A DNA stretch of 64,000 bases from Actinotignum schaalii (lineage in GTDB: Bacteria > Actinomycetota > Actinomycetes > Actinomycetales > Actinomycetaceae), in the NCBI RefSeq assembly GCF_000724605.1, contig NZ_CP008802.1, forward strand, positions 1,426,001-1,490,000. Reading direction: 5' to 3'. The position numbers were made by a program, and so were the translations under genes. Below the pieces are notes generated by a model that was given only the letters and a program-made list of their open reading frames with translations, did not search any database and was not told the origin of the DNA. Positions 38,666 to 52,597 of this stretch are shown piece after piece (the first letter of the stretch is position 1; the number at the start of each line of letters is the position of its first letter).

Positions 38666-40366
38666 CTGAGTCGTGCAACTTTTTGAGTTTTGAGATTTTC
38701 TCGAGTGTTTTGCCTGGTCAGGGGCTTGTGGTTGGTGGTTTTGGGTCACTAAAAGGGTGGTGGTGTTTTAGCTAGACTAAGGCCATGGCGCCTTTCCTAC
38801 GTAAAGTGAGAACCGCCTCGGGTGCCACGGCCGTGCAGATCGTGGAAAAACAAGGCCGGGTAAACCGGGTCATCAAACACCTCGGCTCAGCACACGACGA
38901 GGCCACACTGGCAGCATTACTCGAGAAAGGCCGCCAAGAACTCTCCCCGGGCCAGTTAAAACTCGACTTATTCGATAGTGGTAGCCCTGGTAGCCCGCGC
39001 GCTTCTACCCTGGCTAAACGATCAACACTACTGTGGCAAGTCCTCCAGGACGCCTACCGGGTAGTGGGCTTCGACCAGGCTATCAGAGACAACGTATTCG
39101 AGCAGTTGGTTTTAGCCAGAATTGTTGAACCGGCCTCGAAAGCCGACACAATCCGTATCCTCGACGAGCTCGGCGTCGAGCACGCGAGTTTGCGTACCAT
39201 ATTCACTACCCTGCGTCGCTGCGCGGATAAAGACTACCGCTCCCAACTCGCCCAGGCGTGTTTCCAGCACGCCACAAAATCCGGGGATCTATCACTGGTG
39301 TTGTATGACGTGACTACCCTGTATTTCGAGGCTGAACGCGAGGACGAGGACGGGGACGCGAATGAGGGATTACGGAAAGTCGGGTACTCGAAAGAAAGAC
39401 GTGTTGACCCTCAAATCGTGGTGGGTTTGCTGGTAGACCGTGGCGGGTTTCCTTTGGAGATCGGTTGTTTTGAGGGTAACAAAGCTGAAACTAAAACCAT
39501 TCTCCCAGTCGTGAAAGGCTTTCAAGCCCGTCACGGGTTAGATAGTTTCGTGGTGGTAGCAGACGCGGGAATGCTCAGCGCCAACAACCTCAAGGAATTA
39601 GACGCAGCCGGGTTCAGGTTCATAGTCGGGGCCAGGCAAACCAAAGCACCCTACGATCTGGAATCCCATTTCCACTGGCATGGCGCGTCTTTTACTGACG
39701 GGCAGATTATCGACACGGTCACGCCCAGGCATGCCAATACGAAAGTCAATGACAAGTTGAAGGAAGGCGAGCCTGTGTGGGATGAGACTATGGTCAAGTC
39801 CTGGCGGGCTATCTGGCAGTACTCCGCAAGGGCGAGCCCGCAGGGATGGGCTCACCCTGGAAGCCCAACGCCGGCGTGCTATGGAAGCGATAGAAGGCGT
39901 TAAGCCCGCGCGTAAACCCAGGTTCGTGAAAACCACTCGTAACGGTTGTAGTTTCGATGAGGTGGCCTTTGAACGCGCCCGGAGGCTAGAAGGATTGAAA
40001 GGCTATGTCACTAATATCCCGGCCATGGTGGCTCCGGCAACGCAAATCATTGATTCCTACCACGAATTGTGGCATGTAGAACAGTCTTTCCGTATGTCTA
40101 AATCGGATTTACGAGCCAGGCCGATATTCCACCGGAAGCGTGACGCAATTGAAGCGCACCTGACCGTGGTGATGGGTGCTTTGGCTATCTCCCGTTATCT
40201 CTACCAGAAAACCGGGGTCACGACTAAAAAACTCGTACGCCTGCTACGCCCGATCCAGGAACAAACCATCCTTTATCAAGGCCATGAAATCCGTTCCAGT
40301 GATCCCGTCCCGCCCCAAGCCCAAGAAATCCTAGACAGTCTGGGTCACTAAAGTTGCACGACTCAG
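38666..40366 (+). mobile_element. IS1634/IS1549-type insertion sequence (1701 bp)
   Basis: Perfect 17-bp terminal inverted repeats, CTGAGTCGTGCAACTTT (38666-38682 and, inverted, 40350-40366), bound one transposase gene. The insertion is flanked by 100-bp direct repeats of the target gene. Long, variable target duplications are known for IS1634 and IS1549 of this family. The transposase frame is broken by a single-base shift, so this copy may be inactive now. Confidence 0.92.
38785..40351 (+). pseudogene. IS1634-family transposase with +1 frameshift
   Basis: The first frame (38785-39903) runs to VKSWRAIWQYSARASPQGWA. The conserved continuation (RARRDGLTLEAQRRRAMEA, then GLKGYVTNIPA and ELWHVEQSFRMSKSDLRARP) is in the +1 frame to 40351. 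Removing one G near 39830 (AGGGCGA to AGGCGA) restores WQYSARRARRDGLTL. Catalytic residues are visible: D in VLYDVTTLYFE, D in VVADAGMLS and E in HVEQSFRMSK. The full length would be about 521 residues. A sequencing error or a real inactivating mutation are both possible. Confidence 0.85.
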
Positions 40367-42021: not shown

Positions 42022-42194
42022 GTGCCCTATCGTAGCGGCTTGGCCAAGGTGGGCGCGATGCGGGAGTCCTCCCCGGGACAAATGGGGGTTCTCGCTTCGC
42101 ACGCGACCCGGTGCGGCTTCACGAGAATACGGTCTTCCCTCCCCACGCGAGGCCCGCTACACTGGAAACGAAAGAAACGAAAAGGAGGTGTGAC

Positions 42195-42647
42195 GTGACC
42201 ACTGTTTCACATGATGACAAAATCGCGCAGATTGATCCGGAGATCATGGATCGAATCCGCCGGCTTCTCGCTAAGTCACGCAGGGTTGGATTGACCTTTG
42301 ACGGCGTCACTATCGAAATTCCGCCGCTGCTGCGCGCGCAGATTTCGATGGCTGTGCAGGAGGAACCGGATGGAGATAGGGAAATCTCCACTCAGGAAGC
42401 TGCCGATCTGTTGAATATAACTCGCCCAACCGTAGTGAAGCTATGCGAAGAAGGCACAATACCGTTCCGAAAAATCACCACCCATCGCCGGCTTTGGCTC
42501 TCCGATGTTCTGAACTATCGCGAAAAGCAGCGGCATCAAACTCGCGAAGCTCTCGATGCTCTCATGGCAGATTCCTATGCCATGGGCGATTACGACGAAG
42601 ACCCCGAAGTTATCGCCCAGGCAATTCGCGATATGGGCGCCGAGTAG
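42195..42647 (+). CDS. Excisionase-family (HTH_17) DNA-binding protein, antitoxin-like
   Basis: A 150-residue protein. A MerR/excisionase-type winged helix: STQEAADLLNITRPTVVKLC, then EEGTIPFRKITTHRRLWLSD. It is preceded by an N-terminal arm and followed by a helical tail ending MGDYDEDPEVIAQAIRDMGA. This layout is typical of antitoxins of PIN-domain toxins, but no PIN gene follows; the next gene is convergent 42 bp away. GTG 42195 has AAAGGAGGTG. Confidence 0.8.
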   Translation: MTTVSHDDKIAQIDPEIMDRIRRLLAKSRRVGLTFDGVTIEIPPLLRAQISMAVQEEPDGDREISTQEAADLLNITRPTVVKLCEEGTIPFRKITTHRRLWLSDVLNYREKQRHQTREALDALMADSYAMGDYDEDPEVIAQAIRDMGAE

Positions 42648-42689: not shown

Positions 42690-43841
42690 TTATCTCAGGC
42701 GCAGCTGGATAACCTGCGATTCACCACCGTCACCGAAGTTGTCCGCAGTAGCGATATCTGCGGCAGAATCCGCAGCGGAATCGAGATGCAGCCAGGAGTT
42801 AATCCATTCCGGTTTGAGCCCCAAAGCTTCGGACATCTTAAAAGCCAGGGCTTTCTTGCCGAATACTCGCTCCGCCGCTTGCCTGAACAAGGAAGGCTTT
42901 TCCGGAGGGACAATCACCGGCTCGCGCTTACGCCAGCCGGCGTTAGCCAGCTGAATCTGCAGACTCCGGAAACGGTGCTGCGTAATGATCCCAAGGCGAT
43001 GGGCACGCACGGCAGCGGCTGCTACACTGATTCCGTATTCTCGCCTGATATCTAGCAAGCTACGTAGCGGCGTCGTTTCATTAATACGTGCCCGGGCCAC
43101 GGATTCCGGAAGCAATAGCGCCCCCGCAAAATCGTAGGCACGGCGTTCTTGCGGAGCGCGAGTGGAAGGGATCGGCTGAGTAAGGCCCTGATCGAATAGA
43201 AGGTGCCCCAGTTCGTGAGCGAGCGTAAGGCGCTGGCGCGCACCTTCTGTACGGTGCACAATACTGATCGCAGGGCGAGTATTTTCCCTGCTAGGCAAGG
43301 AAATCGCGAGGTGCCCAGCGTCTTCCGCGCCATCAAGAAGCGGGTACACAACAGCAACCCCCAGAAGCCCGAGGATATGGGTGACATTTCGAATCGGCTC
43401 CGTGGCACTGAGCCCAAGAACCTTACGAGTCTGTTCAGCGACCTTTTCCACACCCAAGCCCGCAGCAAGCAAATCAGTACTGGGAAAATCGAGGTACCCA
43501 GATTCTCGTGAAACTACATCCCAAGCGCGGTTTACTTCTCGCGCGAGCTGATTGACCTTGCGCTCAGCGGTTACTGTGGCGGTACTAGATTTACGGAAAG
43601 TCGCGGTTGCGTTAACGAACTTTAAATCGTCCACCGCGAAGAAAGACAGCGGCACGTGGAAGCTCTGCGCTGCCCGCACCGCAATTTCCTCGGAGAGTGG
43701 CTTTTCTTTCCGTAGCACCTTGGAGATAAAGGGTTGGCTCATGCCCAGGAGGTCACTGAGGTTCTGCTGATTCACTCCAGTGATGTCTTTTAGAGCCCGA
43801 AGCCTCTCAGCTCGAACCCAGCCGTCTACTGTTGACTGCAC
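42690..43841 (-). CDS. XRE HTH plus ImmA/IrrE metallopeptidase
   Basis: A 383-residue protein. The N-terminal XRE-type helix-turn-helix reads LSDLLGMSQPFISKVLRKEK. The ImmA/IrrE peptidase domain has HELGH at 209-213 and a downstream E in RRAYDFAGALLLP (gluzincin ligands). The C-terminal ~100 residues are unassigned. Such proteins derepress mobile or defence genes by cleaving a repressor, or act as antitoxins. It is divergent from the restriction cassette across a 160-bp promoter region. The GTG start at 43841 has a weak RBS. Confidence 0.85.
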   Translation of the reverse strand: MQSTVDGWVRAERLRALKDITGVNQQNLSDLLGMSQPFISKVLRKEKPLSEEIAVRAAQSFHVPLSFFAVDDLKFVNATATFRKSSTATVTAERKVNQLAREVNRAWDVVSRESGYLDFPSTDLLAAGLGVEKVAEQTRKVLGLSATEPIRNVTHILGLLGVAVVYPLLDGAEDAGHLAISLPSRENTRPAISIVHRTEGARQRLTLAHELGHLLFDQGLTQPIPSTRAPQERRAYDFAGALLLPESVARARINETTPLRSLLDIRREYGISVAAAAVRAHRLGIITQHRFRSLQIQLANAGWRKREPVIVPPEKPSLFRQAAERVFGKKALAFKMSEALGLKPEWINSWLHLDSAADSAADIATADNFGDGGESQVIQLRLR

Positions 43842-44001: not shown

Positions 44002-46755
44002 GTGGCCATCACTCTCCAAAGTATTGAGGAGAACGTCAAGAAACTCACCTCCCGTGCGCCCTTCACCCGCGATTTCTTCTTCGACCTCCTCCTCGCGTAC
44101 GGCATCTCCAAATCCAGCGTCACCCGCCTGCGTTCTACCACCGCCAGCTCGCTCAACGTCGCGGCGAACCCGGATCGCGATATCGTGTGGAAAAACAAGA
44201 TCTACCTGGCCGAAACCAGCAATGACCTCATAGCCACCGCACAGGAAATGAAAACCAGTGATGCAGCGCTCCGTTTCAATACCCGCTTCGTCATCGCCAC
44301 GAATTACGAATCCCTCGCCGCGATTGACACCAAAACCGGCGATTCCCTCAGCATCCCCCTCGCCAAACTCGCCAGCGATTTCACCTTCTTCCTCCCCTGG
44401 GCAAACATGGAGAAACAGCACTTCTCCTCGGATACCCACGCGGACCGCCGCGCCGCCGAACACATGAGCAAGGTGTACGACGAACTCCTCGCCGCCAACC
44501 CCAACCTCTTCCACGGGAGCAAATCTCCCCACAGCCTCAACATCTTCTTCACCCGCCTCCTCTTCTGCTTCTTCGCGGAGGATACCGGCATCTTCGCAAA
44601 AGGCCAGTTCACCAGCGCGGTCGGCTCGCACACCCAACGCGACGGCTCCGACACCGCCGCATTCCTCACCGCACTTTTCCACGCGCTGGACACCCCAAAC
44701 CCCGCGGATAAACCCGTCTATTTGCAGAGCTTCCCCTACGTCAACGGTCGCCTTTTCCGCATTAATAACGACGACGCCGCCTCTTTGACAGTCCCCCAAT
44801 TCACCAAGCATGCGCGCGATTCGCTCCTGGAGCTCGGCACCCTGGATTGGTCAGAAATCAACCCGGATATTTTCGGCTCCATGTTCCAAGCGGTGGTAGA
44901 TAAGGACCAGCGCGCTAACCTGGGCCAGCACTACACCTCAGTCCCCAATATCCTCAAAACCATCAAGCCGCTCTTCCTGGATGAGCTCTGGAACGAATAT
45001 GACAAGGCCTGCGAATCGGTACCGCGGCTCAAGAAACTCCTCACAAGAATTTCAAAAATCAAGCTTTTCGATCCAGCCAGCGGCAGCGGCAACTTTTTAG
45101 TTATCGCATATAAGGAATTACGCAAGCTCGAACACGCGATCCTGGACCGCATCGATTCTCTTTCCTCGGCGGGCCGCTGGGGCCTGCTCGGCATGGGCGA
45201 AGAAGAAAAGCTCGGCGCCGCCACCCTGGGCTTCGGTTCCTCGGTGATCAATATCGAGAACTTCTACGGCATCGAAATTGACGACATCTCCGTGGAGATG
45301 GCCATCCTTTCGCTCTGGATCGCCAAACACCAGATGAACCAGGAGTTCAAAGCCAAGTTCGGCCTGGATATTCCCCTCATCCCGCTCAAGGAAACCGGGC
45401 ACATCGTGCACGGCAATGCTACCCGCCTCGACTGGAACGAGGTCTGCCCCAACAACGGCACCGACGAAATTTATTTAATCGGAAACCCACCTTATGTAGG
45501 ATCCAAAAAACAGACCGCCGAACAGAAAGAGGACTACCCCTTCGTCTTCCAAGATCGGAAGTTCTCCAAGAACCTCGACTACATCGCCCTATGGTTTGTG
45601 AAGGGTGCTGACTATATTCGCGGCACTAATGCGAAGCTGTCCTTCGTAACAACCAACTCGATTACCCAGGGTGAGCAAGTCGGACTTCTCCATCCCCACG
45701 TGTTCACCGGCGGTATTGAAATCGGGTACGCCTACACATCTTTCAAGTGGAGCAACAACGCTTCCAATAATGCCGGGGTAACCGTTGCCGTCATTAGCCT
45801 GCGCAACGAATCGGTGGATTCCAAGCACCTGTACACCGGCGATATCAAGACCGAAGTACAGAACATTAATTCCTACCTCGTCAATGGGAACAACGTTGTT
45901 GTTGATAAAAGATCCCGGGGTCCCATATCAGCAGAGCTTCCCTTGATGGTCTTCGGGTCAATGCCACGAGACGGTGGAAATCTCGTCCTTTCTCCCGAAG
46001 AGGCCGAAACTCTCGTTGCTCAGCATCCCGAGACTTCCGATTCCATTAAGTACTTTATCGGAGCGGATGAGTACATCAACGGCAAAGACCGCTACTGCCT
46101 ATGGCTAACCGAAGAAACATATGCCGATTTAGTTGGCATTCCCGCCGTAAAACGACGCGTAGAAAACATCCGCAACTTCCGAAATCGCAGCTCTAACCCA
46201 TCGACTCGAAAATTTGCTGATACCCCTTGGCGTTTTGTGGAGATTCGCTATAAGCCCACGGATTCCATTATCGTGCCAAGCGTATCTTCGGAGCGCCGCG
46301 ATTACGTCCCTATCGGGTATCTGGGTCCCGATACCGTCATCTCGAACGCATCCTTTGCCATCTACGATGCCGAGCCGTGGTTGTTTGCGTTGCTGACCTC
46401 GAAGATGCACATGGCTTGGCTACGCGCTGTTGGCGGCCAGCTCGAAACCCGGCTACGTTACTCGAATACCTTGGTCTATAACACTTTCCCCGTGCCAGAG
46501 TTGTCGGCGTCGTCGAAAGAAGAACTCACGAAACGCGCGCTACGCGTACTCGATGTACGCGAATACCACTGCGAAAAGACTCTCGCGGAACTTTACGATC
46601 CGGACCTCATGCCACGCAACCTGCGCGAAGCGCACGAAAAAATTGACGAAGCGGTCGATAGACTTTACAAGAGCACCCCGTTCGCATCCGATGAGGAACG
46701 CCTCGCGGTGCTGTTCGCCAAGTATCAGCAGATGATCGAAGCAGAAGGGAAATAG
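44002..46755 (+). CDS. MmeI-like DNA methyltransferase with degenerate nuclease domain
   Basis: A 917-residue protein. The N-terminal ~150 residues align by pattern with the nuclease part of MmeI-type (type IIL) enzymes: D60-IVWKNKIYLA-E71-T-S, where active enzymes have D-x(9-10)-E-x-K. The Lys is Ser73, so this domain is probably dead. A helical spacer follows (FTRLLFCFFAEDTGIF), then the gamma-class N6-adenine methyltransferase: motif I FDPASGSGNFL (~356) and motif IV NPPY (~495-498). A target-recognition region occupies about 600-820. GTG 44002 follows AAAGGAGCC. The helicase gene starts 2 bp after its stop. Confidence 0.88.
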   Translation: MAITLQSIEENVKKLTSRAPFTRDFFFDLLLAYGISKSSVTRLRSTTASSLNVAANPDRDIVWKNKIYLAETSNDLIATAQEMKTSDAALRFNTRFVIATNYESLAAIDTKTGDSLSIPLAKLASDFTFFLPWANMEKQHFSSDTHADRRAAEHMSKVYDELLAANPNLFHGSKSPHSLNIFFTRLLFCFFAEDTGIFAKGQFTSAVGSHTQRDGSDTAAFLTALFHALDTPNPADKPVYLQSFPYVNGRLFRINNDDAASLTVPQFTKHARDSLLELGTLDWSEINPDIFGSMFQAVVDKDQRANLGQHYTSVPNILKTIKPLFLDELWNEYDKACESVPRLKKLLTRISKIKLFDPASGSGNFLVIAYKELRKLEHAILDRIDSLSSAGRWGLLGMGEEEKLGAATLGFGSSVINIENFYGIEIDDISVEMAILSLWIAKHQMNQEFKAKFGLDIPLIPLKETGHIVHGNATRLDWNEVCPNNGTDEIYLIGNPPYVGSKKQTAEQKEDYPFVFQDRKFSKNLDYIALWFVKGADYIRGTNAKLSFVTTNSITQGEQVGLLHPHVFTGGIEIGYAYTSFKWSNNASNNAGVTVAVISLRNESVDSKHLYTGDIKTEVQNINSYLVNGNNVVVDKRSRGPISAELPLMVFGSMPRDGGNLVLSPEEAETLVAQHPETSDSIKYFIGADEYINGKDRYCLWLTEETYADLVGIPAVKRRVENIRNFRNRSSNPSTRKFADTPWRFVEIRYKPTDSIIVPSVSSERRDYVPIGYLGPDTVISNASFAIYDAEPWLFALLTSKMHMAWLRAVGGQLETRLRYSNTLVYNTFPVPELSASSKEELTKRALRVLDVREYHCEKTLAELYDPDLMPRNLREAHEKIDEAVDRLYKSTPFASDEERLAVLFAKYQQMIEAEGK

Positions 46756-46757
46756 CC

Positions 46758-48932
46758 GTGGCCACCGAAAACGTTGTGGACGTGACCTATGCGCAAACCG
46801 GGAAATCGGTTGCCACCGATGAGCTCGGGATGCGGGAAATGCAGGCTCGTGCCTATGAACAGCGCACCTCCCAGTACCTGCTCATCAAGGCACCGCCCGC
46901 TTCCGGGAAATCGCGTGCGCTCATGTTTATCGCGCTCGATAAGCTCTTCAACCAGGGTCGGCGCAAGGTAATCGTGGCGGTACCCGAACGCTCCATCGGC
47001 GCATCCTTCGCGCCCACCGACCTCACCACCTACGGCTTCTTCGCGGACTGGGACGTCAAACCCGCCAACAACCTGTGCACACCCGGCAGCAACGAATCAA
47101 AAGTCGCCGCATTCCTGCGTTTCCTGGAAGGGCCGGATGCCACGCTTGTCTGCACGCACGCCACCCTGCGTTTCGCCTTTGAACAGGCCAAACCCGAGGA
47201 TTTCAACGGCTGCGTGATCGCGATTGACGAATTCCATCACGTCTCAGCAGACCTGGACAATAACCGGCTCGGCTCCGTGCTGCACGCCATTATGGAGCAG
47301 TCCGACGCGCATATCATCGCCATGACCGGCTCCTACTTCCGCGGGGACTCCGTGCCCGTGCTGGACCCCAAAGACGAAGCGAAATTCACACCCGTCACCT
47401 TCAACTATTACGACCAGCTCAACGGCTACCAGTACCTGAAAACGCTCGGGATTGGCCACCACTTCTACCAGGGCCGTTACACCGACGCCATCGCAGAAGT
47501 GCTGGATCTCGACAAGAAAACCATTCTGCATATCCCCTCCGTGAACTCCGGGGAATCCACCAAAGACAAGTACGAAGAAGTCGGGAAGATCCTCGATATT
47601 ATTGGCGAGGTGCTTTCGCCCGAAGAAGTTGCGCAGGTAGAGCCGCGTTTCCCCGGGGACGACTGCATGATCTTCGTGCGGCGGCGTGACACCGGTGCCG
47701 TGCTGCGCGTGGCCGACCTTGTGGACGATAGCGATGAGAAAGCGCGCGCTAAGACACTGGTGTATTTGACCGATGTGGCCGCGAAGAATCGCGACGCTGC
47801 TGACATCATCATCGCGCTCGGGATGGCGAAAGAAGGTTTCGACTGGCCTTTCGCGGAACACGCCCTCACAGTTGGTTACCGTGCCTCGCATACCGAACTC
47901 ATCCAGATCATCGGGCGCGTCACCCGCGATAGTCCCGGGAAAAGCCACGCGCAATTCACGAACCTGCTAGCTGAACCGGATGCCACCCAAAACGAAGTGA
48001 CGCTCTCCGTCAACAACGTGCTGAAAGGCATCACCGCGGCGCTGCTCATGGAACAGGTGCTTGCCCCGAACTACAACTTCCGAGCCAAGCGCAACACCGA
48101 CGAAACCCCGGATCCCGGCACCCTGGAAGTCAAGGGACTGGTGGAACCGTCTACCAAGCGCGCTAAGGAGATTATCGCCACCGGTATCGATGACCTGAAA
48201 GCCAATATTTTGCAAGATGACCAGGTAGCGCGGGCCGCGGCCGGTGCAGCGGAACCCGAAGTCATTAACAAAGTGCTTATCCCGCGCATCATTCGCCAAA
48301 CCTACCCGGACATCACTGAGAAAGAAGTCGAGCAAATCCGCCAGCATGTGGTGGTCTCCTCCGTGATCAAATCTGGCGAAGTGCGAACCGTGGGCGACCG
48401 GCGTTTCGTGGAAGCGGGAAACAAGTTCGTGGATATTGATGAGATCAACATCGACCTCATCGAATCCATCAACCCCTTCCAGAAGGCCTTCGAAGTGATG
48501 TCCAAGCAGGTCTCCAGCCCGGTACTGCGCATCATCCAAGATGCCATCGCCGCCACCCGCATCACCCTGAAGCCGGAAGAAGCATTGGAGATGTGGCCCG
48601 CAGTCACCGACTGGGTCAAGGTCAATGGCCGCCGCCCGGACGTCCGCAGCGACGACCCCACCGAGAAACTGTATGCCGAAGGTCTGCTCATCCTGCAACG
48701 CGAAAAAGCAAAGCATGATGCTGAGAAAGCGGCGGCTGAAGCGGCCGTTGAAGCTGCGGTTGGGGTGGAAGCTGACGGAGATAGCGCCGGTGAAACGGAA
48801 GCTGCGAATGATGCAACTGCAGCTGAGCAGAGCGAATCCGCGGCAGTTCGCAGCGGCGGCAAGCATGCCGAAGATGTGCCGGTGCCGGCCCGTACCGCGA
48901 GCGCCGAGGCTTCCCAGGGAGACAAGAACTAA
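46758..48932 (+). CDS. DEAD/DEAH-box helicase of restriction cassette
   Basis: A 724-residue superfamily 2 helicase: Walker A KAPPASGKS (about 44-52), Walker B/motif II IAIDEFHHVS (D157), motif III MTGSYF and motif VI QIIGRVTRDSPG. The region from 430 to 650 is unique. The last ~70 residues are Ala/Glu-rich low complexity. Presumed role: ATP-driven translocation on DNA from the methyltransferase recognition site, delivering the GIY-YIG nuclease (inference). Start GTG 46758; the stop TAA overlaps the next ATG (TAATG). Confidence 0.88.
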   Translation: MATENVVDVTYAQTGKSVATDELGMREMQARAYEQRTSQYLLIKAPPASGKSRALMFIALDKLFNQGRRKVIVAVPERSIGASFAPTDLTTYGFFADWDVKPANNLCTPGSNESKVAAFLRFLEGPDATLVCTHATLRFAFEQAKPEDFNGCVIAIDEFHHVSADLDNNRLGSVLHAIMEQSDAHIIAMTGSYFRGDSVPVLDPKDEAKFTPVTFNYYDQLNGYQYLKTLGIGHHFYQGRYTDAIAEVLDLDKKTILHIPSVNSGESTKDKYEEVGKILDIIGEVLSPEEVAQVEPRFPGDDCMIFVRRRDTGAVLRVADLVDDSDEKARAKTLVYLTDVAAKNRDAADIIIALGMAKEGFDWPFAEHALTVGYRASHTELIQIIGRVTRDSPGKSHAQFTNLLAEPDATQNEVTLSVNNVLKGITAALLMEQVLAPNYNFRAKRNTDETPDPGTLEVKGLVEPSTKRAKEIIATGIDDLKANILQDDQVARAAAGAAEPEVINKVLIPRIIRQTYPDITEKEVEQIRQHVVVSSVIKSGEVRTVGDRRFVEAGNKFVDIDEINIDLIESINPFQKAFEVMSKQVSSPVLRIIQDAIAATRITLKPEEALEMWPAVTDWVKVNGRRPDVRSDDPTEKLYAEGLLILQREKAKHDAEKAAAEAAVEAAVGVEADGDSAGETEAANDATAAEQSESAAVRSGGKHAEDVPVPARTASAEASQGDKN

Positions 48933-50200
48933 TGGCTGATTTCGATTTTGAAGCAGAATTCGCGAAGATCCTCGCCTCCGATACCGAAGGGCTACTTGAC
49001 GCGCCTCCGGCCCCGCGGCGTTTCACCAGCGAAGACCGGCTAGAACGCGCCTTCCTGGAAATCGTGGACTTCCGGGCCAAAGAAGGGCGCGAACCAGATC
49101 CGCACACCCGAGCTATCGGGGAGCGCAAGCTCGGGGCACGCCTGGAAGGAATCCGTGCCGATCCCGAAAAGCTCGAAAAGCTCAAGGACCTCGACACTGA
49201 ATTCGGGCTACTCGCCCGCGAAGAAGCCCCGCAGAGCATTGATGACGTTCTGGCCTCCGATGAGTTCAACCTCCTGGACGACGGATACGGCATCACCGAT
49301 GTGTCCCGGCTCCCCGCTGCGCCACCGCGTACCATCGCCACGCCGGATTACGTGGCCAAACGCGTGAAAGCAAAAGAATTTGAAAAGTTTGAGCCGCTTT
49401 TCAAGGCGAAGCATGCACAGCTATCGGCCGGGATCGTAGAGCAGAAACCTTATAAGAGTCTAGATACCGGTATCAACGCGATTCGTGAGGGCCTGTACTT
49501 CGTACTTAACGGAGTCATGGGATATGTCGCTTTCCAAGGAGACGACGAAAAACACCTTACCGGCGGCGAAATCCGGACCCGGCAGCGGCTACGCGTCATT
49601 TTCGAAAACGGGACCGAATCCGATCTCTTCCGCCAATCCCTTGCGGGACGCATGGGAGAAGAAGACGGCCGGATCATCACCCAACCCGCCGATGTTGCTT
49701 ACGATCTTGCCTACGCAGAACCCTCGGCAGATGTTGAAGCGTCTGGTGAAATTATCAGCGAAGCTTCTTCGGACGAAACTCCAACCGGGTGGATCTATGT
49801 GCTGCGTTCACTCTCCACAGATCCGCAAATCTCCAGCCTGCGCAACCTCCACAAGATTGGGTTCTCGCGCGGGCCGGTAGAAAAGCGCATCGCCGGCGCG
49901 GAACAATCACCCACCTACCTCATGGCGCCCGTCGAAATCGTGGACACGTACGTGACTTACGATGTGAACGCCGCGAAACTGGAGCATCTGCTCCACCAGA
50001 TCTTCGCGGACGTAAAAGTATCCCTCTCGCAAATTGATAGCGAGGGCAAAAACTACGACCCGAGCGAATGGTTCATCGTCCCGCGCGAAGCCATCGCCAC
50101 CGCCGTCGAGCTCATTCAAAACGGGGAAAATACCAAGTATCGCTATGACAAGGGGAGCGAGAGTTTTATACGTCTAGCTATCGACCGAGCCCCCTCATAA
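48932..50200 (+). CDS. GIY-YIG nuclease of restriction cassette
   Basis: A 422-residue protein. A charged helical N-terminal half (~1-230, probable protein-interaction region) precedes the C-terminal T5orf172/MUG113-type GIY-YIG domain. That domain has GWIYVLRSLS (GIY strand), NLHKIGFSRG (YIG strand, with the conserved Arg after it) and KLEHLLHQIF (metal-binding Glu). The domain is the only intact nuclease seen in the cassette. The ATG overlaps the helicase stop. The stop codon itself is part of a strong AAGGAG RBS for a tiny downstream ORF. Confidence 0.85.
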   Translation: MADFDFEAEFAKILASDTEGLLDAPPAPRRFTSEDRLERAFLEIVDFRAKEGREPDPHTRAIGERKLGARLEGIRADPEKLEKLKDLDTEFGLLAREEAPQSIDDVLASDEFNLLDDGYGITDVSRLPAAPPRTIATPDYVAKRVKAKEFEKFEPLFKAKHAQLSAGIVEQKPYKSLDTGINAIREGLYFVLNGVMGYVAFQGDDEKHLTGGEIRTRQRLRVIFENGTESDLFRQSLAGRMGEEDGRIITQPADVAYDLAYAEPSADVEASGEIISEASSDETPTGWIYVLRSLSTDPQISSLRNLHKIGFSRGPVEKRIAGAEQSPTYLMAPVEIVDTYVTYDVNAAKLEHLLHQIFADVKVSLSQIDSEGKNYDPSEWFIVPREAIATAVELIQNGENTKYRYDKGSESFIRLAIDRAPS

Positions 50201-50350: not shown

Positions 50351-52597
50351 GTGATTAAAAACATCAACCTTGAAGGTTTCCCCTGTTTCGCCGTTGATGC
50401 CGGACTCAACAACCTCGAAGCTATTAACCATATCTATGGACCAAACGGCTCGGGCAAAACAACAATAAGTGAGTTTTTGACGACTTTATCGCCCGAAGGT
50501 AACCAAGCAGTCCACTGGGAAGGCGATCCTGATACAATTCGCGTATATAATAGGAGTTACGCTCGATCCGTCTTTGCGAAACCAGAAGGTGAAGAACCTG
50601 GTGTATTTCTTCTCGGCGAAAACAGCGCCGAAACCCTCAAGAAAATTGACGCCCTCACGGCAAAGCAAAATAAAATAAACGAAAAATTAGCGAATTATAA
50701 AGCCGACCACACCAACACCGCTGAAGAATTAGAGACCGAAAAGAAGGCTCTGCAAGAAACAATTTGGGAACGGCTCGATGCAATCCCCGATGTTTTAAGG
50801 CAAAAAATGCCGAAAACAAAAGGAAATAAAAGGAAATGCCTCGAAGAAGCTCTGCGTGTAGCGTCCGAACCTTATAACCCTCAAGACGGGACCTTTGACA
50901 GTCTCGAAAAAATGGCAAACGACCTAAACCAAATGGGAGAAACTGAGAGTGCCATTAGCGCCTTCCCGAGCCCTCCCTCAGCCTTTCGGAATGCACAAGG
51001 CTTCTATTCACTGCTCAGTAAACCGATCGTCGGGAGCGCTGACGTTCCACTATCTGCATTGGTTAATTCCCTCTCAAATTCCGATTGGGTTAGGGAGGGA
51101 ATTGCCTATCTTAATGATCAACATAATATCAACAACGTTTGCCCATTCTGCCAACAAGAAGTTTCAGAAGAATTAAAATCTAAGATTGAGAGCGTATTCG
51201 ACGCCACTTACCGAAACGCTATCGCCGCCATTCAAAGCTTCAAGCAAATTTTAGATTCCGCACATCAGGAAATTACAGCTTACGAAAGGGAACATGTTGG
51301 AAAACTGGCTCGTTTCGCACCGGTCGATCACGTTACTTTAGTTTTCGAGAATATAAAAAGCGCAATACGCCAATTGCAAAGCAGCCTCACACAAAAACTT
51401 GCAAGCCCTTCAACGCCAATCGCCCCAGCAATGATCACTGATAAATACGATGCTCTGGATCGACTCGTAACTGAGGCTAATCTCGATATTAGTAGTTTAA
51501 ATGACCGGTGGCAGAATTCGGAAAAAGAATGGGAAAGAATCCAAACGCAATCCTGGAAATTCTTCGTGAATGAACGCCTCAAGGATCTAATCGACTCATT
51601 TAATCATTCGGAGGGAAGACTAAATAAAAAGCTTGCAGGACTCTCCGAGAAGATTAATAGATTAGACTCCGATCTTACCGAGATAAGCAACAATTTAAAG
51701 GATCTTCACTCGCGTTCAACCTCAAGTCAGCGCACAATCGAACTAATAAACAGTCTCCTCGAGGACGCACGTTTCCGGAGTTTTAAACTCTGTTCTGCTT
51801 CCGGAAATTCGGATGGCTACAAGTTAGTCCGACCGAACGGCAATCTGGTTGATATTGAATCATTAAGCGAAGGGGAGCGAACCTTCATCACATTCTTGTA
51901 TTTCTACCACTCCCTATTTTCCGTTAAGCAGGATGACGAAACGGACCACATAGTTGCCGTAATCGATGACCCCATTTCAAGCCTCGACTCTGAGATTATG
52001 TTCGTCGTTTCCTGGCTCATTAGACGACTTATCGAACAAGTTAAAGAAGGAACGCACGACCGCGTGAAGCAGCTTATTATCCTCACACATAATAGACGCT
52101 TTCATAATGAGCTTTGTGTACAATATAGAAATCAAAATCCAAAAAATGTAGCTTTTTATCGAATTCGTAAACTTTCACCCAGCCCAAATCTTATTCAGGG
52201 ACCCGAGAAAAGGAATCCTATCCGCAACTCTTACCAGGAGCTCTGGGACGAAGTGGCAATTGCAAAGTCTAGTCCACATTGCGGAAAACCCTGGCTCCCC
52301 AACGTTCTTCGCAGGATTCTAGAGACGTACTTTGTAGATCTTGTTGGCCTGCAGAACCTAAATTACCTTGGAGAAGATCTCCCGCTCGAAGAACAGGTAA
52401 TGCATAAGGCCCTTATTGCCTGGACTAACACTGGGTCACATTCCATTATAGAGGCAGACGACTATCTACCCGAATCGGAAAATACCGATCTTTGGTTAGA
52501 GCTTTTTAAGAATGTTTTTTACAAAGAGGGGAATGGCGCGCACAAGTATCACTACAACATGATGATGGCAGGAACGGAGAATAATGGTAAATCCTAA
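50351..52597 (+). CDS. RloC/PrrC-like AAA ATPase, candidate anticodon nuclease
   Basis: A 748-residue AAA_13-type protein. Walker A YGPNGSGKTT (30-38), a long coiled coil with a zinc-hook CPFC (264-267) at its centre, ABC signature LSEGERTF (~506) and Walker B VIDDPISSLDSE (~540). After the ATPase domain: LTHNRRFHNE, then LRRILETYF (R654, E658) and TGSHSI (H697). This is reminiscent of the R-x3-E...H triad of the PrrC/RloC tRNA nucleases. GTG 50351 has TAGGAGAATC. The gene is visibly AT-richer than its neighbours, suggesting separate acquisition. RloC proteins often accompany restriction systems and act when restriction fails. Confidence 0.75.
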   Translation: MIKNINLEGFPCFAVDAGLNNLEAINHIYGPNGSGKTTISEFLTTLSPEGNQAVHWEGDPDTIRVYNRSYARSVFAKPEGEEPGVFLLGENSAETLKKIDALTAKQNKINEKLANYKADHTNTAEELETEKKALQETIWERLDAIPDVLRQKMPKTKGNKRKCLEEALRVASEPYNPQDGTFDSLEKMANDLNQMGETESAISAFPSPPSAFRNAQGFYSLLSKPIVGSADVPLSALVNSLSNSDWVREGIAYLNDQHNINNVCPFCQQEVSEELKSKIESVFDATYRNAIAAIQSFKQILDSAHQEITAYEREHVGKLARFAPVDHVTLVFENIKSAIRQLQSSLTQKLASPSTPIAPAMITDKYDALDRLVTEANLDISSLNDRWQNSEKEWERIQTQSWKFFVNERLKDLIDSFNHSEGRLNKKLAGLSEKINRLDSDLTEISNNLKDLHSRSTSSQRTIELINSLLEDARFRSFKLCSASGNSDGYKLVRPNGNLVDIESLSEGERTFITFLYFYHSLFSVKQDDETDHIVAVIDDPISSLDSEIMFVVSWLIRRLIEQVKEGTHDRVKQLIILTHNRRFHNELCVQYRNQNPKNVAFYRIRKLSPSPNLIQGPEKRNPIRNSYQELWDEVAIAKSSPHCGKPWLPNVLRRILETYFVDLVGLQNLNYLGEDLPLEEQVMHKALIAWTNTGSHSIIEADDYLPESENTDLWLELFKNVFYKEGNGAHKYHYNMMMAGTENNGKS

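Follow-up and report, generated by a model that had tools for sequence, protein, structure and literature searches.

Three adjacent genes in a 64,000-nt stretch of the Actinotignum schaalii genome (the window; positions are counted along its forward strand) are an intact new member of the published dnmA(yeeA)-yeeB-yeeC cluster. They encode an MmeI-like DNA methylase (MT), a superfamily 2 (SF2) helicase (HEL) and a GIY-YIG nuclease (GIY). We give a probability of roughly two in three to the reading that this trio is a split, helicase-dependent restriction system with a GIY-YIG cutter, directed against foreign DNA, and the analysis supports such a split system as the most economical reading. The initial annotation of the locus had described three genes spaced by 2 bp and overlapping at TAATG, and the open reading frames (ORFs), all on one strand, confirm this: the TAG stop of MT (46753-46755) is followed 2 bp downstream by the GTG of HEL, whose TAA shares one A with the ATG of GIY. 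A promoter and terminator scan scored under the shuffled mean. MT matches all five MmeI domains in Pfam (MmeI_N, MmeI_hel, MmeI_Mtase, MmeI_TRD and MmeI_C), HEL matches DEAD and ResIII, with Helicase_C below cut-off and no nuclease match, and GIY matches T5orf172 and MUG113. The GIY-YIG model PF01541 has two matches elsewhere in the genome and misses GIY. The nearest named relatives are from Actinotignum.

The same three proteins in the same order make up the conserved cluster of Bacillus subtilis and Vibrio crassostreae (PMC9973331), with which the window was compared by description only. Like the DnmA cluster, the window trio has an MmeI-like methylase without a nuclease motif, followed by a helicase gene and then a T5orf172/GIY-YIG gene. 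The earlier view that this composition matches no characterised type is thus superseded by published descriptions (PMC7261158, PMC9973331), the first of which cites Morgan 2009 for MmeI homologues that lack a nuclease motif, have yeeB/yeeC-like genes at their flanks and were suggested to form a Type I-like system. Our genome-contig scan did not list B. subtilis, which matches the MmeI families as a control. The window differs from the B. subtilis cluster in that the motifs examined are intact and that the genome carries a second, solitary methylase. Biochemistry of the whole trio was not found in the literature searched; passages matching the same key words in one Zymomonas and one E. coli paper describe other systems.

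The initial annotation had called for a survey of the trio's neighbourhood in other genomes, and such a survey found an arrangement that exceeds chance. A genome-collection scan with a methylase-only query built from this clade gave the best 80 of 112 confirmed relatives, of which we excluded 8, namely 5 that run into a contig end and 3 solitary paralogues, one of these also truncated. In all 72 remaining loci, which have enough flank, HEL and GIY lie downstream of MT, on its strand and in the same order. All three genes run in single frames by span cut-offs in 62 of the 72; failures number 8 for MT, some of them contig edges, 4 for HEL and 2 for GIY. Methylase relatives at E <= 1e-30 occur in 49 of 213 genomes of the same family, and the 39 family loci with flanks comprise 11 with HEL and GIY, 5 solitary paralogues (downstream DNA of at least 8 kb in four and 1.7 kb in L042), one detached half of a broken methylase, and 22 distant relatives without partners (at least 5.3 kb downstream in 21, 0.5 kb in L093). 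On viral contigs, HEL is present in 6 of 7 loci, with GIY too in 5 of these 6. All five plasmid regions viewed (Klebsiella, Ligilactobacillus, Vibrio, Bosea and Niallia, spanning gamma- and alphaproteobacteria and Bacillota) carry the trio, and most of the Klebsiella version was found in 3 of 5,426 E. coli genomes. Among 72,556 plasmid records, 295 hold methylase relatives, stand-alone kinds included, and 263 hold helicase relatives. A helicase search of 396 genomes of the phylum (E <= 1e-20, two candidates per genome scored among the matches listed) returned this genome alone, which is no measure of rarity because other scans show many relatives in the phylum. Taken together, these surveys support one tight operon, found in several phyla.

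The intact methylase motifs FDPASGSGNFL and NPPY reported initially are present, and D357, P358, G361, G363 and N495-Y498 show no variation across 70 sequences. By homology, MT is predicted to methylate adenine at N6; DnmA of B. subtilis makes N6-methyladenine at GACGAG (PMC7261158). MmeI (PDB 5hr4, E 1e-177) is its single PDB sequence match at E <= 0.01. The nuclease residues of MmeI are D70, E80 and K82 (PMC4833311), and a profile-profile alignment to stand-alone relatives (hhalign probability 92.8, E 4e-7) places N52, V62 and K64 at these positions, so that on this alignment both acids have probably been lost (Asn52, Val62) and the Lys kept (Lys64). Position 64 is K in 80 of 83 trio-side sequences and R in the other 3. 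The strict D-E-K triad is found in 19 of 19 stand-alone relatives and in 0 of 83 trio-side sequences. The proposal of an MmeI-like but nuclease-dead methylase therefore stands, as a prediction, in its MmeI domains and its lack of a triad; the residues named for it, D60...E71-T-S73, are probably in the wrong register, and the catalytic Lys is probably not the residue missing. E82-M-K84 was considered as a counterpart of the MmeI E-M-K and rejected, as it sits in a predicted helix; it is kept in four other Actinotignum trio copies and in 0 of 8 other trio-side rows.

That the second gene encodes an SF2 helicase and the third a GIY-YIG protein with intact motifs, as first annotated, is borne out by Pfam and by residue conservation. 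The HEL motifs GKS (50-52), DEFH (157-160), TGS (190-192) and Q383/G386/R387/R390 are each kept in 69-70 of 70 sequences, and selected GIY-YIG residues of GIY, whose second motif reads KIG, in 71 of 71. The GIY-YIG residues of GIY include Y289, R319 and E351. HEL had no sequence match in the PDB at E <= 0.01, and for GIY the search gave two at chance level. Between the window and four relatives, the ratio of non-synonymous to synonymous substitution rates (dN/dS) is 0.14-0.22 for the methylase, 0.02-0.05 for the helicase and 0.13-0.19 for the nuclease: all three genes are under purifying selection. Most trio copies are therefore probably working and not relics, since the key HEL and GIY residues are near-invariant, selection is purifying and the partners are kept in every one of the 72 loci. 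A HEL-GIY fusion, as one open frame in L153, L123 and L175 had hinted, was discarded: two of these loci have the HEL tail in a different frame, and in the third the methylase is broken.

We propose that MT would read a short asymmetric site through its target recognition domain (TRD) and methylate one adenine on one strand, as MmeI and DnmA suggest, and that its N-terminal domain, for which there is a weak indication of a retained nuclease fold, may act as a non-cutting platform. At unmodified foreign sites, MT would recruit or license the helicase, which would move along the DNA and report between two oppositely oriented unmodified sites, and the GIY-YIG protein, whose motif residues are assigned by alignment, would cut. 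The reason for proposing communication between opposed sites is that, when only one strand is methylated, replication yields unmodified daughter sites that all point the same way. Type ISP enzymes offer an analogy: they combine an Mrr-like nuclease, a motor, a methylase and a TRD on a single polypeptide, and reach two head-to-head sites by translocation (PMC3874165). LlaGI and LlaBIII share with the trio a gamma methylase with TRD, an asymmetric site and a motor domain; the trio consists of three proteins, with a GIY-YIG nuclease. Type III restriction likewise needs two head-to-head sites. Type I and Type III systems, as generally described, have a methylase/specificity function and an SF2 motor in common with the trio; unlike Type I, the trio has no separate HsdS, the TRD lying inside the methylase, and in contrast to both types its motor and nuclease are separate proteins, the nuclease being GIY-YIG and not PD-(D/E)XK. 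Type IIL MmeI (5hr4) shares the five domains, methylase motifs and TRD layout of MT, which differs in lacking the D-E-K triad and in having two extra operon partners.

The idea that type IIL cleavage was replaced by this split system is retained only as to the split, since the tree is unrooted and gives no direction for loss or gain of the nuclease. This quick tree, built from connector and methylase columns only, with a program warning of long branches meeting at the stand-alone/trio split, has a single branch (SH-aLRT 100) that sets the 19 stand-alone proteins apart from the rest, and nests the solitary Actinotignum copies among trio copies of their genus. The weak relation of MT to PglX and DrmMI models could also fit a BREX-type exclusion without cutting, in which methylation marks self, the helicase blocks phage replication and GIY-YIG is accessory. 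We consider this very unlikely, as the nuclease residues are conserved and no model of a BREX/DISARM core (PglZ, BrxC, DrmA, DrmB) matched among the seven proteins scanned.

Several observations weigh against the split restriction system. The register of the dead site is uncertain: a structure model puts strands over residues 60-63 and 67-71, and of the 83 sequences 77 have an acidic residue at position 60 and 62 have Glu at position 71. Lys is absent from the common residues listed at position 73 in these 83, which leaves the triad incomplete whichever register is right, and the N-terminal domain is still predicted to be nuclease-dead. Foldseek searches with two structure models gave no PDB match at E <= 0.001. 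In B. subtilis, loss of dnmA caused no growth defect and left plasmid transformation near-identical (PMC7261158), each single deletion left both killing by three phages and their plating unchanged, the DnmA motif is undepleted in phages, and the authors call the cluster a relic (PMC9973331). Solitary Actinotignum paralogues suggest, moreover, that the methylase can live without partners beside it. These genetics, and the partnerless second copy in this genome and in four of five genus relatives (one with 1.7 kb of downstream DNA), favour a methylase that works alone as an orphan regulator of gene expression, its helicase and nuclease being leftovers, as proposed for B. subtilis DnmA. We hold this to be unlikely here, given the low dN/dS of helicase and nuclease, their conserved motif residues and the fact that, across the 72 loci, HEL or GIY fail the intactness cut-offs no oftener than MT. 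In V. crassostreae, deletions of dnmA and yeeB raised sensitivity to some phages, and YeeB and YeeC of B. subtilis lack stretches present in Vibrio (PMC9973331). With several stretches missing, the B. subtilis outcome may not apply to intact copies and may be silent on them. Natural transformation, besides, imports single strands and so tests a duplex cutter only weakly.

The solitary second methylase and a possible exchange of TRDs are the least ordinary aspect of the locus and our most original lead. The window TRD is 65-69% identical to those of four other Actinotignum trio copies, whose other domains are 88-100% identical, save the C-terminal part of L106 (67%, frame broken), as expected for a specificity module. 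We aligned MT to MmeI by eye and applied published residue rules (PMC4833311): E815 and R817 would specify C at position 6, A783 and R819 a purine at position 4, and M654, which aligns with K645, points to A at position 2, with no base read by MT at positions 1 and 3. With low confidence, this predicts the site 5'-NANRAC, methylated at the adenine in fifth position. The second methylase of the genome (L034) is flanked by TetR-like and thioesterase-like genes, as labelled from their ORFs, and by eye reads R-x-D at the position-6 pair, making another recognition motif likely. Among the genus relatives, the solitary copy is interrupted early in L109 and spread over two contigs in G003, and in G002 no methylase match reached E <= 1e-30.

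The TRD of L034 is 58 and 65% identical to those of two solitary copies otherwise 97-100% identical. The trio TRD-N of AS1054, also A. schaalii, shares 90% identity with its solitary counterpart in A. timonense, against 52-65% with the remaining trio copies and no more than 51% with those methylases from outside Actinotignum that were compared. Trio monophyly was rejected for TRD-C (p-AU 0.0008). These results suggest that TRD halves were exchanged between trio and solitary loci. Counting against exchange, monophyly could be rejected neither for TRD-N (p 0.19) nor for residues 488-628 (p 0.31), and, as regards exchange within Actinotignum, 8 of 10 TRD-C have their best match outside the genus at 84-91% identity; import of the TRD from elsewhere therefore also fits. 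The full proposal, that the trio represents an ATP-dependent restriction type of its own, so far unclassified (one-strand methylation, opposed-site helicase communication, GIY-YIG cut) whose specificity in Actinotignum was rewired by exchange of TRD halves with the solitary methylase, is as a whole distinctly unlikely. If true, a solitary nuclease-free methylase could methylate the genome at a new site in advance of its adoption by the restriction module.

Table 1 Features of the trio, its flanking genes and the second methylase; positions are those of the window unless a contig is given.
Feature	Position	Strand	Remarks
MT: MmeI-like DNA methyltransferase, DnmA/YeeA family	44002..46755	+	917 aa, GTG start, TAG stop
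MT domain order			Degenerate PD-(D/E)XK N-terminal domain (residues 1-164), helical connector, methyltransferase, TRD, C-terminal helices
Probable nuclease-site remnant, codons 52-64 of MT	44155..44193	+	N52 (D70 of MmeI), V62 (E80), K64 (K82)
TRD, codons 629-834 of MT	45886..46503	+	Variable part of methylase
HEL: SF2 DEAD/ResIII-type helicase, YeeB family	46758..48932	+	724 aa, GTG start, TAA stop
GIY: GIY-YIG (T5orf172/MUG113) nuclease, YeeC family	48932..50200	+	422 aa, ATG start
Second methylase of same family (L034)	G000:C1:39019-41763	-	Own genome, 72% identical to MT, no partners alongside
Transposase-like gene	38785-40351	+	DDE_Tnp_1 in first part
HTH_17 protein	42111-42647	+	Upstream of trio
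RmrA-like HTH/M78 protein	42690-43841	-	Upstream of trio
AAA_13/PDC-S06 protein (RloC-like)	50351-52597	+	748 aa

Downstream of the trio lies a protein with a Walker A motif (GPNGSGKT), a mid-protein CPFC pair and R654xxxE/SH696 near its end, which we take to resemble RloC-type anticodon nucleases. Its kilobases have 43-48% GC, and a relative follows the trio in L178. Upstream, the RmrA-like and HTH_17 genes recur in L104-L106, and the transposase-like gene may span two overlapping reading frames. Alongside lie an RloC-like and an RmrA-like gene, both with matches to defence models, and the GIY-YIG nuclease might attack host DNA once methylation falls, in an abortive or suicidal response. Such a role appears extremely improbable: three relatives with >6 kb of sequence past the trio lack the RloC-like gene next to it (in a fourth, the sequence reaches 0.6 kb), and B. 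subtilis tolerates dnmA loss, as described above. In another genome (G611:C1, L088 and L087), the methylase is split near motif I into halves ~48 kb apart, with two ORFs judged by eye to be serine-recombinase-like near one edge; a mobile element may there use the conserved methylase motif as its target.

PADLOC assigns MT as its top match to a type IIG restriction enzyme-methyltransferase (residues 11-914, 970 bits), a label at odds with a nuclease site that looks dead. Relatives of the trio are widespread, yet the best studied copy has been called a relic. Should the split, helicase-dependent model be true, opposed unmodified sites would be restricted and sites in one orientation spared, and a solved mechanism would bring restriction biology a GIY-YIG, helicase-linked class.

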